Of a stretch of DNA of 64,000 bases, positions 3,491-62,331 are shown in pieces. This DNA is from Pectobacterium atrosepticum (GTDB taxonomy: Bacteria; Pseudomonadota; Gammaproteobacteria; Enterobacterales; Enterobacteriaceae), in the NCBI GenBank assembly GCA_019056595.1, contig CP036163.1, positions 4,030,001-4,094,000 on the forward strand. Reading direction: 5' to 3'. The position numbers were made by a program, and so were the translations under genes. The notes under the pieces are model-generated. The model saw only the letters and a program-made list of their open reading frames with translations. It searched no databases and was not told the origin of the DNA. Position 1 is the first letter of the stretch; every line of letters begins with the position of its first letter.

Positions 3491-3520
3491 AACCTCTCCA
3501 TCATCATTTTTTTGTATTCA

Positions 3521-8766: not shown

Positions 8767-8865
8767 GATATTTTGTGGGTGCTGCTTATGCCGTATCCGT
8801 CTTCTCTTTCGCAAGGGAAGATCCTTATACACAATGTAAGGACGCCATCGGGTCTGGCCGTTATC

Positions 8866-9180
8866 CGGCGTAAGAAATTATGCTGAGGAGATAGTAGGCT
8901 TAGGATGAGCCGCATGGACGCGGCGAAAGCTTGCGCCACGTCGGACAAAAATGTCAGAGACGTTTTTGAACAGCACTTGTGCTGGCCCGTAGGGCGAGCC
9001 CCATTTATGGGGCGAGTAAACGTGTCGCAAGCGGTCCGTTAAGCCTGATACCGACGATGGCATCGCGCAGCGACATAATTTAGCCGGAAGCCAGGGTTCG
9101 CAGGGCGGCGGCGACTGAGCGCCCTGCGTCGGGCGCGTGCTACGAGGTAGCATGAAATAACAGCATTATGGCGCACGAAA
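8866..9180. repeat. 315-bp structured intergenic repeat, copy A
   Basis: The segment from CCGGCGTAAGAAATTATGC to GGCGCACGAAA has an inverted partner at 26442-26765. Shared landmarks in order are GAGCCGCATGGACGC, GACAAAAATGTC, GACGTTTTTGAACAGC, ACTTGTGCTGGCCC, CCCCATTTATGGGGCGAG, CATAATTT, AGCCAGGGT, a CAGGGCG/CGCCCTG stem, and GGGCGCGTGCTACGAGGTAG. It contains several short hairpins and no credible coding frame. It fills most of the mltB-permease gap (8767-9353). No transposase gene or obvious long terminal inverted repeat is visible. Confidence 0.85.
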
Positions 9181-14006: not shown

Positions 14007-14072
14007 GGTTAATCTTTGGGCGGATTTATCTTTAAGTAAAAATACCTGCCCTTGATGACCAAATGATGACAA

Positions 14073-14340
14073 TTCCCGTCATACTTCAAGCCGTAGGTGC
14101 GTTGGCAATACTCGGCTCATCTCTGAGCCTCGCCCTGAAGGGCCGCTGCAAGCGGCGTTCAAATCGACCAAGCCGATTTGTCCTTACTCACCCCAGTCAC
14201 TTACTTGTGTAAGCTCCTGGGGATTAATGAACCTCATATATGAGGTTCCCCCTTCGGACTACGCTAGCGCTGTTCAAATCGGTTTAAAACCGATTTGTCG
14301 TGCGATTGCCGCCTGCCTACAACTCGAATTATCTAGGGAA
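14073..14340. repeat. Long ERIC element with hairpin modules in both arms
   Basis: ERIC termini (CCCGTCATACTTCAAG and CAACTCGAATTATCTAGGG) and the core CAGTCACTTACTTGTGTAAG are intact. The element is about 268 bp, not 127, because each arm carries a multi-hairpin insert (14110-14182 and 14229-14299). It lies between the siaA-like gene and the lipoprotein hydrolase, probably within the leader or promoter of the former. Confidence 0.88.
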
Positions 14341-19229: not shown

Positions 19230-20078
<849 letters not shown>

Positions 20079-21287: not shown

Positions 21288-21384
21288 TTCCATTACTCGT
21301 TGTTTTGTCATGACAACGTCTAGACTGTTGACAAATATTCTTGCAGAACTAGAACGGTGGTAATGGGATAGAAGAGTAAAGCGT

Positions 21385-21404
21385 CCGCGCCAGGGATGGC
21401 GCGG
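21385..21404 (+). terminator. GC-rich hairpin downstream of pehA
   Basis: A perfect CCGCGCC / GGCGCGG stem with a six-base loop starts 98 bases after pehA. There is no T-run, so it is only a candidate terminator or 3'-end stabiliser. The rest of the gap to 21529 shows nothing else. Confidence 0.45.
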
Positions 21405-21529
21405 CTCGAGCTTACAGGGAGGTACTTGCAGCGTCTTTACGATCTACCCATTATCACCGCTCGACTCACTTTGTCAGCAATCGCAGCACCGTTATTTATA
21501 AAATGACAGCGTGCATTGAGTGTGCTGAC

Positions 21530-26445: not shown

Positions 26446-26765
26446 CGTGCGCGATAATGGCGTTATTTTCATGCTATCTCGTAGCACGCGCCCGACTCGG
26501 GACGGCTCAAACGCCGCTCGCCCCGAGACCCCTGGCTTTTGGCGGAAATTATGCCGCTACGCGGTGCCATCGGTGTTCATGAGTACGTTTCGAGCCGCCA
26601 GTGACGCGATTACTCGCCCCATTAATGGGACTCGCCCTTCGGGTCAGCACAAGTGCTGTTCAAAAACGTCGTGACGTTTTTGTCTGACGCGGCACTGACT
26701 TTCACGGCATCCATGCCGCTCACTCGGTACTCATGCCCACCGATGCATAATTTTTACGCCGAATA
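26442..26765. repeat. 315-bp structured intergenic repeat, copy B (inverted)
   Basis: The reverse-complement partner of 8866-9180, alignable from end to end by eye with substitutions and small gaps. It carries the multi-hairpin stretch ACTCGCCCCATTAATGGGAC, CTCGCCCTTCGGGTC, AGCACAAGTGCT, then GTTCAAAAACGTC paired with GACGTTTTTGTC. It lies between the adhesin gene and the TolC-like gene of the same operon, so it would be transcribed, possibly limiting read-through into the exporter genes. Confidence 0.85.
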
Positions 26766-26835
26766 GCAGTAAAACCTCACCATAAACTTATAAGAGACAG
26801 TCTCCTCGTCAGAGGCTGTGGGGTTAAACCCACGG

Positions 26836-40252: not shown

Positions 40253-40554
<302 letters not shown>

Positions 40555-61457: not shown

Positions 61458-61535
61458 TATCCCTGTCATACTTCAAGCTGCTTGTGCGTTGGCAATACTC
61501 GGCTCATCTCTGAGCCTCGCCCTGAAGGGCCGCCG
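61458..61535. repeat. Truncated ERIC element at the acpH 3' end
   Basis: Only one ERIC arm is present: TATCCCTGTCATACTTCAAG through a partial hairpin module (ACTCGGCTCATCTCTGAGCC, GCCCTGAAGGGC). It then breaks off at GCCGCCGCAAC directly before the acpH stop codon at 61540. The core and second arm are missing. Confidence 0.85.
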
Positions 61536-61539
61536 CAAC

Positions 61540-62121
61540 TCACAGCTGTTGCGTTTTGGCTAACTGCATCATGCGTGGATAAAATTGCCAGAAGAGTATT
61601 TCAAATTGGTGATAGTGCTGCTCAATATCCTGAAAAGAGCCGGACAGTGCGGCTAGTTTAGGACGGCGCACCGACATTCTGTGCAGCACATCGGCGATAA
61701 ACGGCAGTTCCGCATAACGTGTCATCCAACGTTCCGGCCACAAATAGAGATTCAGGTTCTGAAAGCGTTCAGGGGTTTGCGCCAGATTGGGCTCGATTTG
61801 TGATTGCGCACCATCGATAAAGGTCTGCAAAGGCGTGTCCGGCACCAACTGTAACCAGTGACGTGCAAGATAGTGATCCCATAGAACATCTAATGTAATG
61901 GGGGAGACGCGGCGGAACTCATCACTGAAATACTGACGCGCCTGTTTGACTTCCGGCAGGCTGTCGGTCAGCGAGTCAACGCGGCGATGCAGGCGGATAC
62001 CCGCGACGATCTCGTCAGCGTAGCTGCCTTGTGGGTTGCCGCGAACAAAGTCCGCCATCAGGTTACCTAACAGGGAGCTGTCGGCCAGCGTGGCCAGATG
62101 GAGGTGGGCAAGAAAATTCAT
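61540..62121 (-). CDS. acpH: Acyl carrier protein phosphodiesterase AcpH
   Basis: Removes the phosphopantetheine group from acyl carrier protein. The 193-aa protein has the length and motifs of E. coli Acp[57 protein letters not shown] and FWQFYPRMM. The conserved His/Asp residues of this HD-like fold are present. No good ribosome site is seen before the ATG, and an ERIC element begins 10 bases upstream. A truncated ERIC lies just after the stop, so the gene is bracketed by repeats. Divergent from queA. Confidence 0.93.
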
Positions 62122-62130
62122 GGCAACAGT

Positions 62131-62331
62131 ATATACCCTTCATCTTTCGAGTTACAGGCTCGTTGGCTGCCATTAAATACTCGGCCCGTCGTGGGCCTCG
62201 CCCTGAAGGGCCGCTGCAAGCAGCGTTCAAATCTGCTCCCGACAGATTTGTCACCTCAGTCACTTACTGATGTAAGCTCCTAGGGACTCCCTCAGTTGCC
62301 GCCTTCCTGTATCTCGAAATCTATTGGGTAT
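62131..62331. repeat. ERIC element with one hairpin module, between acpH and queA
   Basis: Diverged ERIC: termini ATACCCTTCATCTTTCGAG and CTCGAAATCTATTGGGTAT, core CAGTCACTTACTGATGTAAG followed by CTCCTAGGGA. Only the acpH-proximal arm carries a four-hairpin insert (62179-62252), giving about 200 bp. It fills the acpH side of the divergent acpH-queA region; the queA promoter must lie in 62332-62432. Confidence 0.85.

Follow-up and report, generated by a model that had tools for sequence, protein, structure and literature searches.

A four-hairpin module of long ERIC elements in Pectobacterium that also lodges in other hairpins, a possible mobile DNA element

Long ERIC elements raise the question of what the additional DNA in their arms is. 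In the stretch of Pectobacterium atrosepticum DNA analyzed here (64,000 nucleotides, hereafter the window), an initial annotation ascribed the excess length of some ERICs to a module of about 70 bp, in which four hairpins follow one another and the stems differ between copies yet still pair. Such a module could be a part of ERIC, an RNA kept for its fold, a passenger of its host repeat, or a mobile element of its own.

Four-hairpin modules in the window

Blastn with a plain ERIC probe returned pieces near 3520, 14072, 18037, 19643, 40280, 45152, 61458 and 62134 of the window, which is consistent with eight ERICs, of which four exceed 127 bp. All modules annotated at first, seven complete or nearly so and one truncated, were found within a few bases of their given positions, both in the sequence and by model matches, and the order of the four stems was as described. 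The modules at 19797-19878 and 19685-19758 read on the minus strand, and the other listed ERIC modules on the plus strand.

The long ERIC at 14072-14338 (plus strand; blastn pieces 14072-14113, 14183-14225 and 14298-14338) carries a type C module at the left site (14106-14182, plus; 85.3 bits, E 1.3e-21; DNA fold z −3.84) and a type D module at the first site of the right arm, right-1 (14223-14299, plus; 63.9 bits; z −6.46). The one at 19643-19916 (minus; pieces 19916-19880, 19796-19757 and 19679-19643) has a type B left-site module (19797-19878, minus; 80.6 bits; z −5.87) and a divergent type H module at right-1 (19685-19758, minus; 36.3 bits, E 1.2e-07; z −8.15). At 40280-40553 (plus; pieces 40280-40315, 40402-40456 and 40530-40553), a type B left-site module in which the outer pairs of stem 4 are broken (40318-40399, plus; 59.4 bits; z −1.96) is joined by a type E module at right-2 (40453-40527, plus; 72.7 bits; z −6.45). 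The fourth, at 62134-62331 (plus; left end set by eye from the sequence, blastn piece 62251-62331), holds a type A left-site module (62175-62252, plus; 86 bits; z −3.83). The module types, assigned by eye, are each tied to one ERIC site. In addition, a truncated ERIC left end at 61458-61541 (plus) with a truncated module at 61493-61541 was recognized by sequence, model match and blastn. It adjoins an acpH-like gene, and by its position it is probably the same ERIC as that of an orthologous locus between a tsaA-like gene and acpH, gene names that we take from the protein sequences.

Beyond the annotated modules, the window holds two complete modules outside ERIC and one empty host hairpin. Both modules are of type K, one on the minus strand within another long repeat (8944-9021; 84 bits; z −4.33) and one on the plus strand between the inverted arms CCAGTGACGC and TGACGCGGCACTG (26608-26684; 79.5 bits; z −3.75). 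The K repeat is dispersed: its copies in the window (8820-9180, minus; 26450-26790, plus) align over 281 bp and are 80% identical there, a further copy lies at L033:16150-16470, and the K-type module sits in the middle of the repeat. The empty hairpin is the 3' hairpin of a Ysr224-like sRNA at 21378-21484 on the minus strand (Rfam RF02770, 85.4 bits).

When folded as single-stranded DNA, the nine modules, seven in ERICs and two outside, gave z values from −1.96 to −8.15. Eight of the nine were equalled by at most one of 200 shuffles, and the weak copy at 40318-40399, with its broken stem 4, by eight of 200. The minimum-energy fold did not contain all four stems in every case; stems 2 and 3 were absent in 14223-14299.

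Hosts other than ERIC

A covariance model, R1, was trained on 30 modules (25 from ERICs, three from the K repeat and two from Ysr224 hairpins; no copies from tRNA operons or terminators), and its E-values are rough, as the calibration was short. R1 matched 114 sites in this Pectobacterium genome (G000), including terminator and tRNA classes, and between 35 and 147 sites in each of all 25 Pectobacterium genomes searched, which represent 25 species. Among the flanks listed, ERIC was represented by its left arm and by two sites of its right arm, and the remaining hosts were the Ysr224-like hairpin, the K repeat, tRNA operons and intrinsic terminators. Scripted sorting placed 74 of the 114 copies (28 ERIC right-2 or fused, 21 terminator, 13 right-1, five K, four Ysr224 and three tRNA), and most of the 40 unsorted copies were ERIC left arms by eye; Ysr224 hosts numbered six by eye compared with the four by script. 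The initial view of the module as an architecture of long ERICs was therefore too narrow, since there are at least four other settings in this genome, and other bacterial families carry it as well. We rejected the module as a part of ERIC because copies exist without ERIC; relative to the ERIC body, a 127-bp palindrome, the module is an addition, and the plain body occurs without it at an orthologous locus.

Stricter filters applied to searches across more than 40 genomes. At E ≤1e-5 and with the own genome included, R1 matched 65 of 197 genomes (25 of 79 genera) at the order level, 49 of 143 genomes, one per genus, at the class level, and 40 of 200 genomes (24 of 110 genera) at the phylum level. 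Class-level copies retained GCCC..GGGCC and GTTCAAA..TTTG, and sequence was conserved besides structure, for example in CGCCCTTCGGGCCAGC and GTTCAAAATCGCTCCCGGCGATTTTG. Among 20 class-level stretches fetched, 12 contained GTTCAAA..TTTG and 10 a tRNA or tmRNA; a tRNA or tmRNA was also present in seven of 20 order-level stretches. In one other family, JUMPstart RNA elements closely precede modules (L349:668-705, minus; L351:252-289, plus). Within G000, short ERICs lacking a core resemble fusions of left and right modules (C2:4891161, 3004317, 2847287 and 156851), an appearance that points to recombination between two modules of one ERIC.

A relative of 74 bp occupies the DNA behind terminators. 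Seeds taken from terminator-linked copies gathered 162 distinct matches, of which 121 are full units and the 41 partial ones are excluded from the counts. A T-rich tract precedes all 121 full units, with TTTTT directly before 114. The number of units changes in tandem: one orthologous terminator has zero, one, two or three copies according to species, whole or partial, and an array of ten copies runs at 74-bp steps at G017:C4:82505-83272. At a second terminator (T2), loss together with contraction of an old pair fits the pattern as well as gain does. Stems co-change between terminator orthologues, as in GACGGAC/GTCCGTC versus GGCGGAC/GTCCGCC. Inserts of ~650-800 bp were also observed directly behind the same terminator T-run in several species (L222, L223, L224, L226, L228 and L231); these presumably encode a BrnT-like toxin-antitoxin pair, and a nearby insert in L230 is one that we take to be IS200-like.

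Copies linked to tRNAs led to a known RNA family. The Rfam RtT model (RF00391) matched such copies at 96.6, 68.4 and 60.0 bits, each above its gathering threshold of 45; further scores of 38.2, 31.9 and 29.4 bits fell below the threshold. These matches lie antisense to the module. Conversely, R1, whose training set held no tRNA-linked copy, matched the opposite strand in all 12 fetched RtT loci, at the RtT copy itself in 11 and at a neighbouring copy in one (L342). RtT and the ERIC module thus share a four-stem core with shared sequence under one model, which supports the superfamily we propose for them. In the loci read by eye, the module occupies the T-loop of a copied 3' end of a tRNA or tmRNA. 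Of 259 distinct modules, 34 have TC|GAA at their 3' side, and among these 34 the end TTTGTC occurs in 18. Most modules in the tRNA-linked stretches lie downstream and on the opposite strand; L352 and some of L371, L372 and L383 depart from this pattern.

The kinship has its bounds. At the RtT gathering threshold of 45, the whole window gave no RtT match, its ERIC modules included. At E 0.1, no RtT match was found in L101, L116 (K type) or L127 (ERIC right-2), and among 20 stretches scanned, matches came only from L144, L151, L172 and L173, all with tRNAs. Copies in ERICs, K repeats, Ysr224 hairpins and terminators have flanks other than tRNA operons. For the copies of one group (group 5), a prophage origin was considered and rejected, because Rfam and ARAGORN placed tRNA operons in five stretches out of eight (L144, L151, L159, L172 and L173); the 1.3-1.4 kb of L153, L156 and L157 contain no tRNA. 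A second Rfam family, AaHKsRNA22 (RF02902), overlaps modules in antisense orientation in L105, L125, L346, L360, L362 and L376 at 30-39 bits, every score being under its gathering threshold of 39.8, and through this overlap AaHKsRNA22 may belong to the same superfamily as RtT.

Pairing in the stems, as DNA or as RNA

The compensating stem changes described at the outset exceed both shuffled and slid controls. In a MAFFT alignment of 30 modules (A1), 97.2% of 597 stem cells were paired, compared with 80.1% after shuffling (none of 500 shuffles as high) and 30-47% with partners slid, and the covariation score was 0.470 versus 0.159. Both sides changed in 13 of 20 pairs, by helix 4/4, 1/3, 5/6 and 3/7, so that paired change affects all four stems, measured against shuffles that ignore relatedness. 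On this measure, the outcome that the initial annotation had named as refuting its claim did not appear. A larger alignment of 125 distinct rows gave 96.6% paired and a covariation score of 0.515 versus 0.143; it is one of those fitted to the model (A2-A5), which lean towards the model structure, and A1 and the per-subtype alignments were made with MAFFT. Pairing is thus maintained. The swapping of whole stems between copies held in part: the paired change is real, and some of the swapping arises from comparing a few subtypes tied to ERIC sites. Much of the covariation signal stems from differences between subtypes, and near neighbours within subtypes differ mostly by one-sided stem changes.

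The initial annotation had also allowed for a copying process that rewrites stems. Template switching during replication, a mechanism described in passages of PMC8794818, would rewrite stems and keep their complementarity without selection. Terminator units were compared as 31 pairs of nearest neighbours with two or fewer substitutions (18 with exactly two): three two-sided Watson-Crick changes were found among them, as template switching would produce, but 17 stem changes were one-sided, and these numbers are tiny. The ERIC-B, C and E subtypes had no two-sided change, again in disfavor of template switching, and the lack of a consistent wobble bias (see below) is in its favor. Altogether, a rewriting process is possible on this thin evidence, and we judge template switching as the source of the paired stems to be very unlikely.

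If the RNA fold of one strand were selected, G.U pairs should exceed A.C pairs on that strand. On the module strand, 126 distinct ERIC, K and G modules had 34 G.T and 40 A.C cells. The RtT set, assigned by locus and including some loci whose stretch holds no tRNA (41 distinct, 701 cells), had 4 and 5; dispersed copies from another family (21 distinct) had 2 and 3; and a class-level set (31 distinct) had 7 and 7. The terminator subset of the own genome (23 distinct) showed a surplus of G.T, 24 to 11, which is likely due to a G.T-rich outer pair of stem 4. As a control, 23 distinct tRNAs gave 10 to 0, which differs from the ERIC/K/G counts by Fisher's test (p = 0.0012, on cells that are not independent). 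Counts within subtypes, made on MAFFT alignments with subtypes A, D, G, H and K left out and the ERIC-F pattern giving 0, showed A.C above G.T in all four subtypes (12:4, 12:8, 6:2 and 74:45). This lead of A.C on the module strand would amount to some wobble tolerance, as G.U, on the opposite, RtT strand. A clear RNA-strand signature was rejected, as the wobble counts are mixed. Selection on the RNA fold of the strand first annotated is therefore not supported, since G.U is not in excess over A.C there; the mixed counts make module-strand RNA selection unlikely and leave both opposite-strand RNA and DNA.

The module may thus be kept as a structured RNA, a processed or RNA-shielding transcript whose pairing is selected at the RNA level, of the sort proposed for RtT and for ERICs carried in mRNAs; we consider this explanation unlikely. 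In its favor are the RtT-type copies, which lie mostly downstream of tRNA or tmRNA genes and on one strand, and the A.C lead within subtypes, which equals G.U on the RtT strand. Passages of PMC2229807 further describe ERIC RNAs of Yersinia that affect mRNA stability depending on orientation. However, the RtT set itself had nearly equal counts over its 701 cells, and the pooled counts were about even, unlike those of tRNAs. Moreover, the terminator copies stand behind their terminators in the other orientation in all of the full units.

Filled and empty sites, and relation to known repeats

Presence and absence of the module were compared at the orthologous ERIC between the tsaA-like gene and acpH, where 10 of 25 loci gave a pattern match. 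The ERIC has no module in G020, G013 and G010; one module in G005 (type D) and in G018, G011 and G002 (type E); two modules in G004 (D and E) and G021 (A and E); and a decayed D module in G022. The 150-nt flanks of nine of the 10 other loci were 85-98% identical to those of L063 on both sides, including L061 (G001), whose partial ERIC copy lies outside the search pattern; L065 (G002) agreed on the 5' side only.

The junctions are exact. In ERIC, the empty sequences GGGGAT^TCGTGCG, GCCGCCT^TCACGC and TTAC^TCACCCC become host-[module..TTTG]-TC-host. The Ysr224 junction, GCGCCA^TCCCTGG, is empty in the window and in L032, and is filled at the orthologous P. carotovorum locus (L037). The TC at the 3' junction is common to five host contexts and is also present in the empty host, and it could be either target or module part; for the T-loop context, the empty form is the tRNA itself rather than an allele. 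Among 62 ERIC cores scored as empty at right-1, TC stood at the junction place in 46 and was missing in 16. In folds of the empty hosts, the right-1 and right-2 insertion points fell inside unpaired loops, and those of the left site and of Ysr224 at a stem-loop boundary. The Ysr224 family itself resembles a dispersed repeat here, its hairpin occurring with or without a module (window 21378-21484; G000 C2:2794476, 2831115, 864144, 3142414, 3780042 and 2747232).

We propose, giving it about an even chance, that we are dealing with a mobile, non-autonomous DNA element which nests in hairpins and which recombination between its host repeats spreads further. The module consists of ~70-80 bp in four consecutive hairpins, with a TTTGTC end in most copies (175 of 259 distinct modules), and is lodged within the loops or at the base of other hairpins, namely those of ERIC and Ysr224, the T-arm of copied tRNA or tmRNA 3' ends, and terminators. 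It would enter in folded form, as DNA, immediately ahead of a host TC or, in the terminator branch, behind the T-run, and entry in this form would oblige the hairpins to keep their ability to pair as DNA. DNA folding would then be the selected property, the entry step would be transposase-like, and the direction of change would be gain rather than loss. Secondary spread would follow as the module multiplies along with its hosts and passes from one host repeat to another by recombination or conversion. Within tRNA operons, transcription yields the opposite strand, which is known as RtT RNA, and RtT RNAs would be the tRNA-lodged copies.

How much of the spread is due to the host repeats can be argued. 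The module could be a passenger only, derived from a few ancient insertions per host repeat, multiplied by host amplification and recombination or conversion, and immobile now. The site-specific ERIC module types, as assigned by eye, agree with a passenger, since they fit ERIC conversion or whole-ERIC amplification as well as separate insertions; so do the fused left-right modules that have lost the ERIC core (e.g., C2:4891161 and C2:156851) and the tandem arrays and contractions. Nevertheless, terminator units lie behind many different terminators which, by eye, share no host repeat beyond the T-run, and we regard passenger status alone as quite unlikely. As for a mover, Y1/RAYT transposase (PF01797), the sole enzyme family searched, had no match in G000, compared with matches in five of 14 control genomes. 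RAYT-driven movement in G000 at present was rejected on this basis, and the mover of the proposed element may be gone. Nor did a partner element turn up of the kind that non-autonomous IS200/IS605-type elements have, whose ends a Y1 transposase recognizes.

A wider reading, which we hold tentatively and at slightly less than even confidence, is that one folded-DNA mobile module pervades the Gammaproteobacteria, nesting in hairpins before TC and served by a single-strand mover. With the same reserve, rtT RNAs, long-ERIC inserts, filled Ysr224 hairpins and the tandem repeats behind terminators may be one element. The module appears to be a part common to several bacterial repeats that have been described one by one; it would unite them and give a common source to the rtT repeats and to the 70-bp inserts of ERICs. 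Since empty and filled alleles occur naturally at one locus, both the entry of a module and what it does to hairpins and terminators can be tested directly. Our results also carry a warning that covariation in such repeats need not imply RNA function. In the literature searched, we found no link between rtT/RtT and ERIC inserts, Ysr224 or terminators, and six module strings searched in full paper text returned no papers.

Among known systems, ERIC (IRU, RU-1) is the host of most copies here. Insertions of ~70 bp in it were reportedly known to Wilson and Sharp in 2006, and this size agrees with ours. The insert itself has a sequence other than that of ERIC and also occurs where ERIC is missing.

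The small palindromic repeats of the REP/BIME and RAYT system, hypothesized in passages of PMC3733652 to be miniature transposons, are described there as palindromes of 20-40 bp with GTAG or CGTC tags, in contrast to the module, whose genome G000 yielded no Y1 match. YPAL/RU-2 is similar in its entry at or beside dyad symmetry, as reported in part of PMC2229807, but it is 168 bp long and is likened here by description only.

An earlier hint in print that rtT resembles dispersed repeats is found in passages of PMC2965389, which assign dispersed rtT-like elements of E. coli to BIMEs upstream of gatY, rbfA and cvpA; those passages do not name ERIC, Ysr224 or terminator repeats. The RtT RNA itself, known from rtT of the E. 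coli tyrT operon, has the same four-hairpin core in the same order, on the opposite strand and in a copied tRNA T-arm, and it differs from the ERIC, K, Ysr224 and terminator copies in that the latter lie outside tRNA operons.
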